From Lepraria neglecta (taxonomy: Eukaryota > Ascomycota > Lecanoromycetes > Lecanorales > Stereocaulaceae), in the NCBI GenBank assembly GCA_033220425.1, contig CM065652.1, positions 2,480,001 through 2,544,000 of the forward strand: a DNA stretch of 64,000 bases, given 5' to 3'. Below, piece by piece: positions 3,233-20,448 of the stretch (the stretch's first letter is position 1; each line of letters opens with the position of its first letter). The notes beneath the pieces were generated by a model, which worked only from the letters and a program-made list of their open reading frames with translations, was not told where the DNA came from and made no database searches. The position numbers and the translations under genes are program-made.

Positions 3233-6200
3233 ATGTATCGCCCATCATGGTTGCGAACAAAGAGAAACTTGAAACCTAATCCAGAAGCCTCGTCAACCGC
3301 TGCCTCGTCGAGGTCGAACCTGGCAAATGGGGCTGAAGCTGGGCTTGGAAGCCATCCGGAAGTATATGATCCGCCAGTCTGGAGCGCAGTAAATTCTGAT
3401 TAATGTTTATACCAGGCTCCGCAACCAAAAGCCGAACCTTGCCAAAGTCTCTGGGACCGGGCATACGAGGATTTGCGTAATGAGAAAAAGGAGCTTGTTG
3501 ATGCCTTTGAAAAGATGTTGGTGTCCAAACCCGAAATCGAACCAACATTGAGCCTGGGAAAGAAAGACATTTCGGAGAGGGAGAAGCAGATGTCAGCGCT
3601 TGTTGATGAGAAGCTGGCGGCCATGAATGAGAAGCAGTGGAGAGTTAGAGTGTGCGGAAGATCGGTGGAGATAAGGGAGCAAGTGGACCGGGTTGTCAAG
3701 GTCGTGCTTGTTGCAAAAGACTTTCTGTCTTCCGTTGCAAGTCTGGACCCCATTCATGCTGGTTTACCCTGGGCTGGAGTGTGCATGTTGCTTCCTGTGA
3801 ATGATCTCAAGATCCTACGGTCAGTACTCTAAAGGCTAACTATCATGGCCGCAGCTGGTGGTGAACGATACTAAGCAGCGTTCTGCCGCAATTGAGGGAC
3901 TCGAATCTATCTCGCAATTAGTTCGCCGCTATGCTGAAATCGAGCATATTTATCTTCAGGGAGAAGAACTCACGCTTCGGAATGATCTTGAAGCTGCGAT
4001 AACGAAGCTTTATAGCCAGGTACTGGAATACGAAGCCAGAGCTGCATGCCATTTCAATCGGAACACCGCCATTCAAATAGCGAGAAATATTGTCGAGGCC
4101 GATAGCTGGGAGAGTATCCTTGACAAGATAAAGACGTCAGAAATAGCCTGTGGTGAACTCAAAGAGATAATCGACGCAGAAGATCAGCGGGCGCGTATGA
4201 GACGGTTGGAGGATATGCTTGATAAACAGGCTCGCGAAGTCGACAGGCTGCTGGAAGTTTCTCGTGGTCAAGATGAAGAGCTTTTAGCGGAAATAAAGGC
4301 TATGCGAAAAGACCAGAAGGCATCATTCGAGACTCAAAAGGAGATGGATTGCCACAAGAGCCTTCGAACCACCGCCTACGAGAATACCATGGAAAAGAAT
4401 CCTGACCGCGTACCAGGAACCTGCGAATGGTTCTTGCGGAACCCGAGATACTGCAAGTGGTTGGATGATACTGCATCGGACTTGCTTTGGGTAACCGCGG
4501 ATCCGGGATGCGGCAAGTCTGTTTTATCGAAATTCTTGATAAACGACTACAAAAGCTGGATGTGGAAAGATATGTCCATCTGCTACTTCTTCTTCAAGGA
4601 TGATAGCGGCGAGAACAAGAGCGTATTGCACGCTCTCTGTGCAATGTTGCACCAGCTCTTCATACAGAATCATACGCTTCTCAAGCACGCCATGACCGAA
4701 TACAACAGCAATGGAACCCAGCTCCCCCAGCTCTTCGGATCACTATGGAGTATACTTCTACAAGCTGCAACAGATCCTAATAGTGGTGGCATTTTCTGCA
4801 TTATAGATGCCCTTGATGAATGCGATGAATCAAGCTGTGAAGAGCTCATCAGACGTCTAGCAGAGTTTCATTCGAACACGAGTAGGATGGCGAAGATCAA
4901 ATTTCTTATCACCAGCCGCCCGAATGCGTTTATCACACGCGTGTTCTCCCAACACTTTTCCCGACACAATCAGGACCTAGCGTCTGTCAAGTTGATGGGA
5001 GAGGACGAACCCGAAATGGAAGAAATCTGTACCGAGATTGGTTTGGTCATTGATGCGGAAGTGAAAGGATTTAAGAAAAGGAGATCCTCGTATGGAATTG
5101 ACGATAACGCAGACGTCGCCGTCCAACAGCAACTCAAGAAGATTGAGAATCGAACTTATCTCTGGACGGCTCTTATCTTCCCTGAATTGAACAAAGTGAT
5201 AGAATATGCCGAGGAAGAATTGCTGGAAGCTATCAAACGCATTCCTTCAACTGTTGACGAAGCGTATGAGAGGATCTTATCAAGGAGCTCCGATGGTGAA
5301 AAGGCCAGAAGGCTACTTCATGTGGTCTGTGCAGCTTCCCGACCACTCACACTCGTTGAGATGAACCGGGCACTGTCGATTAAAGAGAATGGTTGTATTG
5401 CTGCACTAGTGCCTCCGCAAACATTCGGGAACGTAGTTCGAAATCTTTGTGGTCTTTTCATAAGCATACAGCATGCGAAGATTTACCTCATCCATCAAAC
5501 GGCAAAGGAGTTCTTGATCCGTGAAAACGCTATTGAAGAGCCTATCAACCATGTTAGTTACCGCAGTGGAATTTGGAAGCACTCACTAGAACCAACGGAA
5601 TCGAATCTCGTCCTCGCAGAGATATGCCTCCGGTACCTCCTATTTCCTGAACTTGAAAGAGATCCACTAGTCGGGGACGAAATGATACTTTGGGAATATG
5701 AACAGTGCGTAGAAGAATGCGTAAACGAGCACGACTTTCTTGACTATTCAGCAAGACACTGGGCCACTCATTTCCGAAAAGCTAAAACTAAGCAGATGAC
5801 GATTCTTAAATTAGCCTTGGAAAATTGCAATACTAGATCCAAGCGGTTTAAGATATGGTTCCCAGTGTACTGGATTGCCACTGGACTCTACCCTCTTCGA
5901 AACTTTACCGACCTTATAGTAGGATCGTATTTCGGGCATGAGGCGGTCGTGAAGCAGTTGCTCGAGAGGGGCGTCGACCCGGATTTTGAGGATATCGACG
6001 GTCGAACGCCGCTATCGTGGGCCGCAACGAACGGGCATAAAGAGGTGGTAGAGCTGCTGCTCGCAAAGGACGGCGTCGACCTAGATTCTAAGGATTTCGA
6101 CGGTCGAACGCCGCTATCGTGGGCCGCACAGAACGGGCATAAAGAGGTGGTAGAGCTGCTGCTCGCAGAGGACGGCGTCGACCTAGATTCTAGAGATGAT

Positions 6201-8645
6201 AGATTCGATCAAACGCCGCTATCGTGGGCCGCAGAGTACGGGCATAAAGAGGTAGTAAAGCTGCTGCTCGCAAAGGACGGCGTCGACCCGGATTCTAAGG
6301 ATTCTAACGGTCGAACGCCGCTATTATGGGCCGTATCGAACGGGTATAAAGAGGTAGTAGAGCTGCTGCTCGCAAAGGACGGTGTCGACCTAAATTCTAG
6401 GGGTTCTGACGGTCGAACGCCGCTATTATGGGCCGTAACGAACGGGTATGAAGAGGTGGTAGAGCTACTGCTCGCAAAGGACGGCGTCGACCCGGATTCT
6501 AAGGATTCCAATAATCGAACGCCGCTATCGTGGGCCGCAGAGAACGGGCATAAAGAGGTGGTAGAGCTGCTGCTCGCAAAGGACGGCGTCGACCCGGATT
6601 CTAGAGATAATAGATTCGGTCGAACGCCGCTATCGTGGGCCGTAGAGAACTGTTATAAGGTAGTAGAGCTGCTGCTTGCAAAGGACGGCGTCGACCCGGA
6701 TTCTAAGGATTCCGACAATCGAACGCCGCTATCGTGGGCCGTAGAGAACAGGCGTAAAGAGGTAGTAGAGCTACTACTCGCAAAGGACGGTGTCGACCTG
6801 GATTCTAAGGATTCCAAAAATCGAACGCCGCTATCGTGGGCTGCAGAGAACGGGTATAAAGAGGTAGTAAAGCTACTACTCGCAAAGGACGGCGTCGACC
6901 CGGATTCTAAGGATTCCAAAAATCAAACGCCGCTATCGTGGGCCGCAGAGAACGGGTATAAAGAAATAGTAGAGCTACTACTCGCAAAGGACGGTGTCGA
7001 CCCGGATTCTAAGGATTCTAATAATCGAACGCCGCTATCATGGGCCGTACAGAACGGGTATGAAGAGGTAGTAGAGCTACTACTCGCAAAGGACGGTGTC
7101 GACCTGGATTCTAAGGATTCTAGTAATCGAACGCCGCTATCGTGGGCCGCAGAGAACGGGCGTAAAGAGGTAGTAGAGCTGCTGCTCGCAAAGGACGGCG
7201 TCGACCTGGATTCTAAGGATTCCGACAATCGAACGCCGCTATCGTGGGCCGCAGAGAACAGGCGTAAAGAGGTAGTAGAGCTACTACTCGCAAAGGACGG
7301 TGTCGACCCGGATTCTAAGGATTCCAAAAATCGAACGCCGCTATCGTGGGCCGCAGAGAACGGGCGTAAAGAGGTAGTAGAGCTACTACTCGCAAAGGAC
7401 GGTGTCGACCCGAATTCTAAGGATTCTATTAATCGAACGCCGCTATCGTGGGCTGCAGAGAACGGGTATAAAGAGGTAGTAGAGCTGCTGCTCGCAAAGG
7501 ACGGCGTCGACCTGGATTCTAAGGATTCCAAAAATCGAACGCCGCTATCGTGGGCCGCAGAGAACGGGTATAAAGAGGTAGCAGAGCTGCTGCTCGCAAA
7601 TGACGGTGTCGACCCGGATTCTAGAGATAGATTCGGTCGAACGCCGCTATCGTGGGCCGCAGAGAACGGGCGTAAAGAGGTAGTAGAGCTACTATTCGCA
7701 AAGGACGGCGTCGACCCGGATTCTAAGGATTCCAAAAATCGAACGCCGCTATCGTGGGCTGCAGAGAACGGGTATAAAGAGGTAGTAAAGCTACTACTCG
7801 CAAAGGACGGCGTCGACCCGGATTCTAAGGATTCCAAAAATCGAACGCCGCTATCGTGGGCCGTACAGAACGGGCGTAAAGAGGTAGTAGAGCTACTACT
7901 CGCAAAGGACGGTGTCGACCCGAATTCTAAGGATTCTATTAATCGAACGCCGCTATCATGGGCCGCAGAGAACGGGTATGAAGAGGTAGTAGAGCTGCTG
8001 CTCGCAAATGACAGCGTCGACGCGGATTCTAGAGATGATAGATTCGGTCGAACGCCGCTATTATGGGCCGTAGAGAACGGGTATAAAGAGGTAGTAAAAC
8101 TGCTGCTCGCAAAGGACGGCGTCGACCTGGATTCTAAGGATTCCGACAATCGAACGCCGCTATCGTGGGCCACAGAGAACGGGCATAAAGAGGTAGTAGA
8201 GCTACTACTCGCAAAGGACGGTGTCGACTTAGATTCTAAGGATTCCAACAATCGAACGCTATGGTGGGCCGCAGAGACAGGGCGTAAAGAGGTAGTAGAG
8301 CTACTACTCGCAAAGGACGGTGTCGACCCGGATTCTAAGGATTCTAATAATCGAACGCCGCTATCGTGGGCCGCACAGAACGGGTATGAAGAGGTAGTAA
8401 AGCTGCTGCTCGCAAAGGACGGCGTCGACCTGGATTCTAGAGATGATAGATTCGGTCGAACGCCGCTATCATGGGCCGCAGAGAACGGGCGTAAAGAGGT
8501 AGTAGAGCTGCTGCTCGCAAAGGACGGCGTCGACCTGGATTCTAAGGATTCCGACAATCGAACGCCGCTATCGTGGGCCGCACAGAACGGGCATGAAGAG
8601 GTGGTAAAGCTACTCCAATCGCGTAATAATATATCTTTATTATAA
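3233..8645 (+). CDS. NACHT-ankyrin NLR-like STAND protein
   Basis: Predicted three-exon gene: 3233-3361, 3416-3796 and 3855-8645, with introns of 54 and 58 bp in phase 0. It gives about 1,766 residues. Exon 2 opens the fungal NACHT N-terminal domain (SLWDRAYEDLRNEKKELV), which continues into exon 3. A NACHT NTPase follows, with Walker A at DPGCGKS and Walker B at FCIIDALDECDE, and then a winged-helix-like stretch ending in KIYLIHQTAKEFL. The C-terminal half is about 27 ankyrin repeats (6000-8616) that are nearly identical. In known fungal NLRs, repeats of this kind act as the sensor in non-self recognition or heterokaryon incompatibility. No N-terminal killing domain is visible in the first 43 residues. 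The second donor (GTGAAT) was chosen because its intron has a GCTAAC branch site and restores the family's continuity; a nearer GTCAGT donor would leave only 35 bp. The reading frame appears intact. The partner and effector are unknown. Confidence 0.88.
6000..8616 (+). repeat. Homogenised ankyrin repeat array
   Basis: The array consists of tandem units of 102 nt (34 residues), with some of 105 nt where DDRFGR replaces DSxNR and two of 99 nt. The consensus unit begins TPLSWAAENG, then xKEVVELLLAKDGVD and xDSKDSxN. Synonymous positions are also largely shared between units, which points to recent duplication or gene conversion. Because the period is a multiple of three, the opposite strand also stays open for long stretches. 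Confidence 0.95.
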
Positions 8646-15199: not shown

Positions 15200-16414
15200 T
15201 CCTCTTTGCTACCAATCCTTGTTGGGTACACCATTTGTACTATCACGACCCTTTTCCAATGTAGAGTGTCGGTCTCGAGGATCATTGCTATGGGCCCCTT
15301 CGACGCAGCATCATTTTGTTAATTGCCAAGGCCTACTCTGCAAGTGATCTGGACTGTCGTGTTGACAAGGCTAGCCTTTAGCTTGTACAGCTTCCCATCT
15401 GGTCTATCAAAGAACTCGCAGCATCCGGTGGAGCTCTTCCACCATTTTCGCTTCCTTTTTAGGTTCTTGGGCTGGTAGCTACATGGTCAACTTGGGCGAG
15501 CACGTAAAGATTGGAGACCATCCGCCAGGGTTGGTGCCGGAAAGCCGGGAGGAAACGAGGCCTGTGGCCGTTTACACGGTCTCGTAATATGAAACAGTAG
15601 CTCTAGATGATATTAAATGGACGGCTATCTGAAAGCAATCATGCCTGATAGGACGTGTTGCAAGGAAAGCATTTGTTAATATCTTCAAGCAGACGTAGGA
15701 GGACAGGTTTCGAGAAGAATTGCAAGCTTGATCGTAGTTGATGTGGTGACATTGAGTTTGATGACCTAAGTAGGATTTAATAATACTCCAGCCATTGTTC
15801 TAAGCCTGCACCACGCTGTCAGGTGTAGGATCGCAACCTGGAATGTGCCACGTGTCATTTGCGGCTGATTTCAAGACTATCGGCAAGCTCCGCCGATTAA
15901 TAAATACTTCCATACTTCGCCCGCTCCGCCCATTTTGTCCCCTTCGCTCTTACAATCGTCTATCCCTCCACCTCAGTCAAAGTGCAACGTTGATATAGCA
16001 AGTCGAGAATTCTAGCGCTTACGGAAATCGAAATAAATTTGCAAACCAACATGGACTCTGAACTACGATTGCGGCCTTGCGCACGCCCTGCGTGTGACGC
16101 TCGCCGTAACTGATCTTCCACCGGCTCCTATTGCGATGGTATATTAGTATCCTTCCTTGGTCAAAGACTTGCTACTAATAGTACGTAGAGAAATATCTTA
16201 AAGCTATCGCGCAAGCCTCGATCACGCAGATTGCCGACAATCCTGGTGATGAGGCTCGATCGACTCCCCGCAAAGCAATACAGTATTCTTTAGTATAATA
16301 TAAAGCCGGACGTTACTATTAAGAGCTCTAGAAAAAACCTGGCAGTCCAGATAAGTATTAAATACGTATTTCTAATTTAGTGTCAAGGGCCGGCAAAATC
16401 GAACGTGACCCGAA

Positions 16415-16468
16415 CGTGGCCCCAGACGCCCCACCCAGAAACCGGTCCGACGTGCGTCCGGGGCCACG
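16415..16468. repeat. Inverted repeat (potential hairpin)
   Basis: Left arm CGTGGCCCCAGACGC (16415-16429) and right arm GCGTCCGGGGCCACG (16454-16468) are complementary with one mismatch across a 24-nt loop. This would form a very GC-rich stem. Confidence 0.75.
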
Positions 16469-16629
16469 CCAATCACGGCTAAGGGCGCCCCGGGCCAACT
16501 TTTAATTAGTAAAAGATAGCGCCGGAAACCCCCCAACTAGTCTTGCTGCCACCCTTGGCTAGTCTCGCTGACTAGTCTCCGTACCCCCTGGCAACCTCCC
16601 ACGGGCGCATGCTGCTGCACCCTAACACT

Positions 16630-16673
16630 GCTGTCGCACCGCTGTCGCACCGCTGTCGCACCGCTGTCGCAAC
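16630..16673 (+). repeat. Tandem repeat, 11 bp x 4
   Basis: Four head-to-tail copies of GCTGTCGCACC; the last ends in AAC. It lies inside the GC-rich island. Confidence 0.9.
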
Positions 16674-17951
16674 CCCCGCGCGTATCACCCTCGCGAGAAA
16701 ATCGCCCGAATCGATCGATTCCAGCACCGCGTTGGGGGTAACCCCCGGGGTTGCTCCAGGGGGTTTCCCGAGTGCTCCGGTCGATCATCGAACATCAAAA
16801 AAAAATCATATAGGGCTGAAAACACGTGACTTGGCCCGAGAGGCGCCCGAGGCGCGTGGGGCCCCCGAAGTAGCTCGCGCTTTGGCCCGGGGCTGCTGGG
16901 GCCGGGTTCGAATTTGCCGACGCGGTGAGCAGTGCTCTACATATATATACATAGGAAATCAACCCATGAGGGATGGTAGAACCTTCGCTCGTCGCTCATA
17001 CTCCATGAGCGTTCCTGAGAGAACTCTGCGCCGCGGACTTTCAGTCCCGGTGAAGCTCCGGTTCTTAACACTAAGGAGCTAAAAAGAAAAGAGGTAAATA
17101 GATCTCTTTTATTTTAGATAATCAGAACTCTAGAAGTAGAGAAATACTAAATCGCGACTAAAATATAGATTAACTATATCTATTAACCTATTATAATAGG
17201 CTTGGAGAAGATTGCTATCCTATTTATTAATAAATAGGTCTATAGTATACTCTAGAGACTATAGGACTGTATAGAGGGCGAGAGGGGGCGTACGGGCTGG
17301 TAAATCATGTAAATAGCATAAAGCGCCTAATTAATGGGGGATCTGCGGGCAGTTCCGGGGGGCAGCCCCTGGGGAACTTCCGGGGGCGCTCTGCATTCTT
17401 TTTTGGTGTTGACGAGGAAGGTCAAGCGTGGAGAAAATGGAGATCATCGGCAACGTTGAGTCGTCCCGTCTCATTGGCCAGATCCGTCGCTAAACATCAT
17501 CACAAGCACACATACTCTCACTCGACCATGGTTTTGACTAGTGACGCAGGAAACCTATCACGGACACACCTCGATAGCTTCGGCCTGAGCCATCACTAGT
17601 CAAAACCAGCTCGATGCCCAAAACTGTTTCTTTTGTCGAGCTAACATCACATGTAAACTTACCGGCGCCATCGTGTAATCCATTGGCTGAAGTCTGACGC
17701 CAAATATCTTCAATGTAACCCACATATGCGACATGCATGCATGCTGTCGACATTTTGGGTATGGCCAATGCTTATCTTTGGTGATCTTGTCTATGGATGG
17801 TGATTTCCTCATGCATTCGAAAGTCAAATACCCCAAACCCGGGGGCGCATCCTTGCATTTTGGATCTGTCACTCTTGCCTGTTCGCTGCAGCCTTTTACC
17901 TTCGTTGTTTGTGTACTTGTTCTTTGCAATAATTGAGCAACTTCGCAAGCT

Positions 17952-19872
17952 ATGAACGTAATATCCAATGCAGAAGACGTGGTGTTGGACGTCATACACA
18001 ATGCTGAAGATGTGGTGATGGACGCCGTATCCAGTGCTGAAGATAAGATCTTGGACGCTGTCTCCAATGCTGAAGAAATCATCCTGGAAGCTACGGGTGC
18101 TCAAACCATATGGCCAGCAGCCGCATGTCTCTTAGCTCTTGTGAGCTGCGTACTCTTCACATGGCGAGTGTGGTCCTTCACTGTGCGGCCATGGCTCCAT
18201 CCAAATGATCCCAAAGAGTTGCCCTACTGGTTCCCTTGTAAGTTCTTACCTCTCATCCCCAGACTCGTTGCGAGGCTGATAGGTATCCAAGATATAGGTA
18301 AACTTCGAGCTATAGGCATATAAAGAGATGGTCTTTGACATGAGATATGCACATAGGCCATGCAATGAATTTCTTCGACAATTCTGATGGGCTCATCTCG
18401 TACGGGAGGTATGACCGTCCAACTCACGTCTACAATTGGCAAAGTCTCACGTTGGGCAGAGCATTCTTAGACGATGATGCGCCTTTCGCCATTTCGTTTC
18501 CCGGCCAGACCTACAATGTCATAATCAGGCCCCAGGATGTTGCAGCTGTATACGAGCATACCACAAGTCTATCTTGGGACTACTATCTGAAGGAGTTGCT
18601 GCTCTCTTTCGGCGTCGACAAGTCTGTTCTGGGCAAAACCTGGCGCAATCCATCCACTCACCAGAATGGGGATGCCAATCAAGCCAATGGAATCAAGTCT
18701 CACGGAATCAAGCCGGATCACAAGTCCCTTGTCCAGTGGACGGAGGATCTGTATCGACAGCAATTTCCCCCAGGGCCAAGATTCGACGAATTGAGTGACA
18801 AGATGGTTGGGCTCATTGAGGATTCCCTGCGTTGGACAAAGCTGCCAAGCCGATATACCGTCAACGAAGAGCGCATCCCACTCATGGACTTTTGTGCCAA
18901 CATCCTGATTAATGCAACAACGCGGTCTCTACTCGGCGACTTCATCTACGAAGTAGAACCAAAACTCACGCCAATGATGATTGACTTTACGGAGGAGTCT
19001 TGGAAGCTTCTGATGCTTCCTTACCCTAAAGTTGCGGCCCCAAAACTCCACACCGCCAAGAAAGGAATCCACAACGCGCTGTGCAAATACGTCACGTCGC
19101 CTCCAGAGTCACGAGCCAAAGCAGCGTGGATGATGAATGAAGTCATGCAGGCGCAAGTTGCTGCAGATATCGGTAACACTGATAAGGCTTCGATAATGCA
19201 TGCCCTCCTCTACATGTGAGCTTTTTCCTCCTCATATTTGCGCCAGTCTATTGACATCATCACAGAGCGAACATCAATGCATATAGACTCAGCTTCTGGA
19301 TCCTGAGCTACATTCTCTTTGACAAGAACCTATTGGCCGCCATTCGCGCGGAGGTTGTTCCGGCATTCCGGAGCAGCACGGCCGACTTTTCACACATTCT
19401 AGGGTGTTGCCCACGCCTGCTAGCCGTCTTCAACGAAACTCTACGTCTAACCTATGGATCCGTGTCAGTCCGACGAGTAATGGCACCCACCAAAATCGGC
19501 GACAAGAATCTACGCCCCAATACTAGTGTCATGATCCCAATTCGCCAGCTCCATTACGACGACGACGCATTCGGAGGCGACGCGGAAGTCTTCAATCCTG
19601 ACAGGTTCTTGAACGATTTTGATCGTAATCCTAGCTTCCTGCCCTTCGGCGAGAGATTTAACTCGTTTCCTCGACCTTTCTTAGCAAAACGAGAGGTCTT
19701 GGCGTTCGTGGCCCTGGTTCTTCACCGCTTTGAGATCGAGGTCGTCGGGAATATGTCCGATGAGAAAGCGGATCCTTCTCTTCCTGAGATTGATCAGGTC
19801 TGCCAGACACTGGGTATCATGCAGCCGGTTAAAGGGACGGAAGTGTGTATTAGGTTGAAGGAAGTTGCGTGA
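17952..19872 (+). CDS. Cytochrome P450-like protein lacking heme cysteine
   Basis: Exons 17952-18237, 18357-19215 and 19266-19872. Residues 3-46 are four 11-residue repeats. A membrane anchor follows (AACLLALVSCVLFTW) and then a basic and proline-containing hinge. The P450 fold is shown by the I-helix region (ANINAYRLSFWILSYIL), the K-helix ExxR (ETLRLTYGSVSVRR), the FNPDRFL motif, and the conserved FLAKREVLAFVALVLHRFEIEV after the heme loop. The loop itself should read FxxGGGxxxCPGR. Here it reads FLPFGERFNSFPRPFLAK, of the same length, with Phe (19666-19668) in place of the thiolate Cys. The family resembles fungal CYP7/CYP8-like enzymes. Without the ligand it should not act as a normal monooxygenase. 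It could be a dying gene or a non-catalytic protein. The rest of the frame is open. Confidence 0.85.
17958..18089 (+). repeat. 33-bp tandem repeats encoding an 11-mer
   Basis: Four 33-nt units encode VISNAEDVVLD, VIHNAEDVVMD, AVSSAEDKILD and AVSNAEEIILE. The units are in frame at the N terminus of the P450-like protein and are diverged at synonymous sites. Confidence 0.93.
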
Positions 19873-20448
19873 GGTGTTGAGGACTGGGCAATTTTGGTCC
19901 GCGGGATTGGAGGCTCTTCTTTTAGACTCAGCGAAATTGTGATAAGTGATACCATATAGGAGGCTGTAATGTAATAAGAACATGAGACATTTTGATTGGG
20001 AAAAGCAGCCTGAATTTCGTCATTTTCATGTGTGATCTTTGATTCAATCTCCCAATTGGTCTAATCTACCGAGACCGCCATGCCAGTCCACCCTTTTACT
20101 GTGCTCGTAGGCATTGCGTATGGTCTCGAATACGTCTGGGAAAGCTTGCAAGCAGGGAAGTTTTGTAGTCTAGGTCGTAGAACAAAGACTGACTGCTTCG
20201 TATCTCTCTAGCATGCAGTTCCATAACCCCGAAATCCAAGTAGCCTTGCGGCATTTATGCACTCTCTTAACGCCTGGTGTAGTATCATCCTTACTTTTGG
20301 CTCTCAATGAACGCCGTATGTCATCCATGTCCGCAATACCGTCCCATCAAACATTCATCTTCGACCGTTCTCGCTCGCTCGGGTTGTATCTGCCACCCCA
20401 TCACATTAGCCAAGCTCCTCCACCCTCCCTCATTCCTCGCCAGTGTCC
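19873..20448. other. Intergenic, no gene recognised
   Basis: This region holds the 3' ends of the P450-like gene and RPB10, which converge here. Only short frames are present. Confidence 0.4.

Follow-up and report, generated by a model that had tools for sequence, protein, structure and literature searches.

The window analysed here is a 64,000-nucleotide stretch of the Lepraria neglecta genome (C7:2480001-2544000; assembly of 42.0 Mb in 11 contigs), whose gene content and short introns agree with a fungal origin. At positions 17952-19872 of its forward strand lies a P450-type gene which, modelled from the sequence alone, comprises three exons with a 1752-nt CDS, encodes 583 residues and contains no internal stops. 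Its features are listed in Table 1. Exon 3 matches PF00067 with E=4.8e-18 and 65.6 bits (cut-off 22.8), covering profile positions 283-446 of 462; no PF00067 match is obtained with exons 1 and 2 taken singly. Besides exceeding the curated Pfam cut-off, the gene possesses the helix-K ExxR and the PERF-type motif expected of the P450 superfamily, and the initial annotation was right in stating that ExxR and FxPDRF remain. NCBIfam search yielded a single P450 match, far under its cut-off (25.5 bits versus 525). The marks of an ordinary pseudogene (stops, frameshifts, lost splice sites) are absent: the CDS and both GT-AG introns are intact. GC3 of exon 3 is 0.592, compared with 0.521-0.615 in seven outgroup P450s; the broken paralogs described below are close (0.519-0.553).

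Table 1. Features of the P450-type gene (positions in the window) and its paralogs in the same genome
Feature	Position	Strand	Remarks
Exon 1	17952..18237	+	ORF with donor GTAAGT; 11-residue repeats, then hydrophobic stretch, then ...PKELPYWFP
Four tandem in-frame 33-nt units, 11 residues each	17967..18098	+	NAEDVVLDVIH / NAEDVVMDAVS / SAEDKILDAVS / NAEEIILEATG
Hydrophobic stretch	18108..18164	+	about residues 53-71, read by eye from translation
Intron 1	18238..18356	+	119 nt, GT-AG; paralogs with similar placement by eye
Exon 2, middle part	18357..19215	+	alone without Pfam match
Intron 2	19216..19265	+	50 nt, GT-AG; within I-helix region (..LLY/IANINAYRLSFW..; slash marks the intron)
Exon 3, I helix to C terminus	19266..19872	+	PF00067 match; stop 19870-19872
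ExxR motif ETLR, residues 439-442	19435..19446	+	from translation
FNPDRF motif	19591..19608	+	from translation
Heme loop ERFNSFPRP	19651..19677	+	Cys position 19666-19668 = TTT (Phe)
Paralog B	C5:2.426 Mb		stop in exon 3; residues 196-383 without any match exceeding 25 bits; loop Trp
Paralog C	C7:2.601 Mb		stops in exons 2 and 3; loop Cys kept
Paralog D	C7:2.863 Mb		exon-3 frame changes, exon-2 stops; loop Cys kept
Paralog E	C8:4.272 Mb		exon-3 frame changes, exon-2 stops; loop Cys kept

The 11-residue repeats of exon 1 are absent from the paralog translations, as judged by eye. In all six pairs of repeat units dN is lower than dS, the units being only 33 nt each. The hydrophobic stretch following them is probably an ER membrane anchor. 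Exon 2 gives weak matches to the broken paralogs, with about 25-31% identity over longer stretches. Two dispersed repeats are located upstream of the gene: one of about 500 bp at 16400-16925, with at least 36 further matches over 150 nt (68-93% identity), and one of about 220 bp at about 17191-17417, with at least six further matches (78-86%); 40 of 92 candidate matches were scored. Peptide read-out like that of these upstream repeats also adjoins paralog C. Elsewhere in the window, the long open frame at 3858-8645 represents an NLR-like fungal gene; it encodes N-terminal domains of NACHT type and numerous ankyrin repeats.

In the heme loop of the P450-type gene, the thiolate Cys had been noted to be replaced by Phe and the Gly and Arg of CPGR to be lost. 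Both observations are confirmed by the codons. Translation of 19291-19872 reads ...DAEVFNPDRFLNDFDRNPSFLPFG-ERFNSFPRP-FLAKREVLAFVALVLHRFEIE..., the immediate context of the loop being FLPFG-ERFNSFPRP-FLAKRE. Apart from Phe at the Cys position, Arg (CGA) is found two residues after it, where Gly is expected, and Pro (CCT) three residues after it, where Arg is expected. The heme-thiolate pattern FxxGxxxCxG, with its Cys, is thus represented by FGERFNSFPRP, and all three changed key residues fall within four codons. The loop holds no Cys, His, Met or Tyr. It had been described as a loop of ten residues with preserved length; the length is indeed kept, but nine residues lie between FLPFG and FLAKR. 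The loop Arg that precedes the Cys position by four residues was not counted as peculiar to the gene, because paralog D also has Arg (FGGRTTYCSGRY) and paralog C has Ser. Since the Cys ligand and the adjacent Gly and Arg are lost together, the predicted gene product cannot perform normal, thiolate-ligated P450 catalysis.

To place the gene among P450s of solved structure, a profile of exon 3 and six related P450s from the same genome was used as query. CYP8B1 (7lyx) ranked first with E=2.4e-22; CYP7A1 (3dax, 6.1e-19) and prostacyclin synthase (3b98, 1.2e-18) were among the first ten, with BM3-type P450s interspersed. When exon 3 was searched as a single sequence, CYP17A1 and CYP11A1 ranked first. 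The I helix reads ANINAYRLSFW, and the stretch IANINAYRLSFW is devoid of the usual acid-Thr pair; in the CYP7/8 group, this helix does not carry the acid-alcohol pair typical of P450s. CYP8B1, CYP7A1 and prostacyclin synthase are active enzymes with heme Cys, in place of which the gene has Phe. Among prokaryote genomes, the search returned four P450s that are only distantly related (22-29% identical where they align), none of which is an ortholog. AlphaFold prediction from exon 3 and these four prokaryote P450s had a mean pLDDT of 58.6, with values below 50 for residues 105-136, which include the loop; a model of this low quality is not suited to structural searching. No dioxygenase or peroxidase domain was detected in exons 1-3.

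Heme loops were surveyed at loci of P450 matches in the same genome (L001-L074, many of them overlapping), which represent a subset of its P450s. The underlying Pfam search comprised the best 92 of 282 candidates, and the gene itself is absent from the matches listed. In the HMM loop alignment of 94 rows, 14 with a gap at the Cys column were dropped; Cys occupies this column in 76 rows and another residue in four, these being the gene and paralog B, each present twice via overlapping loci. The retained rows correspond to 64 distinct segments, 62 after exclusion of two judged spurious by eye. Heme Cys is present in 60 of these 62 distinct loops; the gene, with Phe, and broken paralog B, with Trp, are the exceptions. 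In the latter (L010 / L032, G000:C5:2426361-2426912), the loop is otherwise normal (FGGGISYWPGRF). A further P450 match, at G000:C4:4980152-4981393 (L066), contains seven TGA codons in frame.

Genome search with exon 3 identified four paralogs with 38-43% identity in the exon-3 matches, all of them broken (Table 1). Among the five copies found, the sole unbroken frame thus belongs to the copy without the CxGR signature. Exon-3 lesions of the paralogs are few, with one stop or one to two frame changes in each (L029-L032). In all ten family pairs pN (0.38-0.44) is well under pS (0.71-0.87), which indicates long purifying selection on the family before decay. In every pair, moreover, synonymous change is close to saturation or past it; together with the small number of exon-3 lesions, this suggests that the copies are old duplicates, four of which were broken late. 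The pattern looks like a recent family-wide loss. In the tree constructed from exon 3 with loop columns removed, the split separating the family has support of 99, and nodes within it are weak (49-72). The terminal branch of the gene is the shortest (0.56, versus 0.64, 0.77, 0.80 and 0.89 in paralogs); paralog C, however, lies closer to the inferred root of the family (0.64) than the gene does (0.83).

The initial annotation had regarded the flanks of the loop as perfectly conserved and the change as confined to the loop. An alignment of 12 exon-3 sequences (the gene, four paralogs and seven more distant outgroup P450s) was evaluated with three definitions of a conserved position. When conservation is defined as presence in 85% or more of the other sequences, the first statement holds: outside the loop, 19 of 19 such positions are retained by the gene, compared with one of four inside it (Fisher p=0.0023). 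At family-unanimous positions, 24 of 28 are kept outside and neither of two inside (p=0.034), a weaker contrast. At outgroup-unanimous positions the gene keeps 11 of 17 outside and one of five inside, a contrast that is weaker too and not significant (p=0.14). Under the 85% definition, outside-loop losses in the broken paralogs amount to 4/22 (B), 6/21 (C), 5/23 (D) and 2/21 (E), and inside the loop each of the 11 other sequences lost at most one. Outside-loop conservation alone tells little, because the seven outgroup P450s lost from 0/14 to 9/27 (the latter in L020, the most distant one). In the family-unanimous set, the four of 28 outside losses of the gene equal those of broken paralog E. 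Loop damage is disproportionate to the rest of exon 3 under two of the three definitions; this contrast is real and rests on few loop positions, in exon 3 only.

In simulations of neutral point mutation on the CDS, the ancestor was represented by the present-day sequence. One of 24000 runs (six divergences, 4000 each) yielded four altered loop codons without any stop. Seven divergences between 0.01 and 0.2 were simulated 15000 times each, and in no run were the Cys, Gly and Arg codons changed with the frame still free of stops. The pattern is not reproduced by point mutations that arise independently and neutrally, and this explanation was rejected. We conclude from the simulations that the loop was subject to a separate regime of change, with the rest constrained, or else was altered in a single very recent clustered event. 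The earlier view that the gene is something other than a plain pseudogene in decay is supported by these simulations, by the intact three-exon CDS and by the kept positions of the 85% set. Absence of stops combined with retention of the 19 kept positions has P=0.157 at 0.02 and P=0.060 at 0.03 substitutions per site when indels are ignored; with one indel assumed per ten substitutions, the tolerable drift is about 0.01 (P=0.068).

Several other sources of the altered loop were considered. No sequence similar to the loop, which could have served as donor, was found elsewhere in the genome (at most three mismatches) or within the window, and 17800-20000 contains no inverted repeats of at least 14 nt. 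Compensating frameshift in the loop was rejected, as other frames, read by eye, do not contain CPGR. Dinucleotide indices of the gene bear no sign of RIP, and the loop changes do not seem to resemble its products.

Tentatively, we favour the explanation that the gene encodes a catalytically dead P450 fold retained by selection, without claiming that this is probable. The locus would encode a full-length, probably ER-anchored P450-type protein of a fungal family, with CYP8B1 as best solved match in the profile search, in which the heme-thiolate ligand and the neighbouring Gly and Arg have been lost and the remainder stays coding and conserved. The fold may have been preserved because it serves a non-catalytic function, for example by holding a hydrophobic ligand or by acting as partner of another membrane protein, and the family members in the same genome would have decayed once the chemistry was no longer needed. 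If so, the protein is presumably made, heme-free and under continuing selection, and its ligand-holding or partnering job may be located at the ER membrane. A change of role would explain why the sole unbroken frame is that of the copy with the lost loop; under recent death of the gene, this has to be a coincidence. In favour of retention also count the intact CDS, the contrast in the 85% set, the shortest terminal branch, the low pN of the family and the failure of simulated neutral mutation to give the pattern. On the other hand, positions kept by the gene resemble those of an active P450, including Arg residue 451, which would be expected to contact a heme propionate, and this counts against a retained pseudoenzyme. 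Retention is further weakened by the outside-loop losses of the outgroup P450s and of the gene in the family-unanimous set, the outgroup-unanimous contrast, the GC3 values of the broken paralogs, the shorter root distance of paralog C, the poor AlphaFold model and the reported misfolding of Cys-mutated CYPs (PMC3990721). The strong rival is recent death: a normal P450, the last of five, would have been hit in the loop by one clustered (multi-nucleotide) mutation or by a few in quick succession. This is quite possible too, and with four sister genes already broken, each by few lesions as expected of old duplicates dead lately, recent death of the fifth is easily credible. It would agree with the clustering of the altered key residues and with the otherwise active appearance of the gene, and the untouched positions outside the loop fit it at least as well as retention. 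Drift of about 0.02-0.03 substitutions per site is likewise compatible with the unbroken, well-kept frame when indels are ignored, but this shrinks to the lower value above once they are assumed. Recent death moreover requires a rare clustered loop event as an early lesion, for which neither donor nor inverted repeat was found; independent point hits fail in simulation, and recent death leaves the coincidence of intact frame and damaged loop without explanation. The weights given to retention and to recent death are a matter of judgement and not of computation.

It is unlikely that the protein still carries heme, held by a different ligand or by no ligand at all, and performs non-P450 chemistry, for instance of the peroxidase kind. 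Retention of the I-helix residues ANINAYR and of conserved residues outside the loop would suit such chemistry, as would the presence of prostacyclin synthase, an isomerase-type P450, among the first ten solved relatives. However, ERFNSFPRP offers no Cys, His, Met or Tyr to take the iron, and Arg and Pro in place of Gly and Arg should crowd the proximal side. An error of assembly or base calling is very unlikely: it would be atypical for such an error to place several substitutions inside 12 nt while leaving the frame intact and the flanking sequence clean. Supply of a normal loop by an alternative exon through splicing is hardly credible at all, as six-frame search of the 64-kb window with a P450 C-terminal profile gave no match above noise besides exon 3 (next best E=0.53).

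P450 folds without the heme Cys are already known in print. In oomycetes, CYP5619D has a degenerate CXG motif, with six members devoid of the conserved cysteine; CYP5619 proteins are described as peroxidase/dioxygenase fusions, and P450s with degenerate motifs are suggested to possibly carry out non-traditional reactions (PMC5919972), which would also speak for the other-ligand possibility. The gene shares with CYP5619D the missing Cys but shows no such fusion, and P450s of CYP7/8 type lead or rank high among the solved structures in its profile search. Aspergillus 10R-DOX-1 contains a Cys-less P450-like partner domain fused to a dioxygenase (PMC13049297), and the title of a paper on A. nidulans PpoC speaks of 'only one active haem'. 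In contrast to 10R-DOX-1, no dioxygenase domain was found in the exons of the gene. Mutation of the invariant Cys in most CYPs is reported to result in inactive, misfolded protein (PMC3990721).

Both Cys-less cases that we found in the literature are thus fusion proteins; the gene described here shows no such fused domain. In its fullest form, the retained-fold explanation pictures a free-standing, membrane-anchored, heme-free pseudoenzyme that has outlived its catalytic kin because it came to bind or partner instead of oxidising, with the expanded repeat N terminus as a part of this new role; as a whole, this picture is conceivable but doubtful. The locus raises a small open question, namely whether selection can keep a P450 fold without heme. 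If the gene is retained, a free-standing case in an otherwise broken family would allow a non-enzyme role of P450s to be asked about; if it is freshly dead, it would provide a clean snapshot of the loss of a P450 family.
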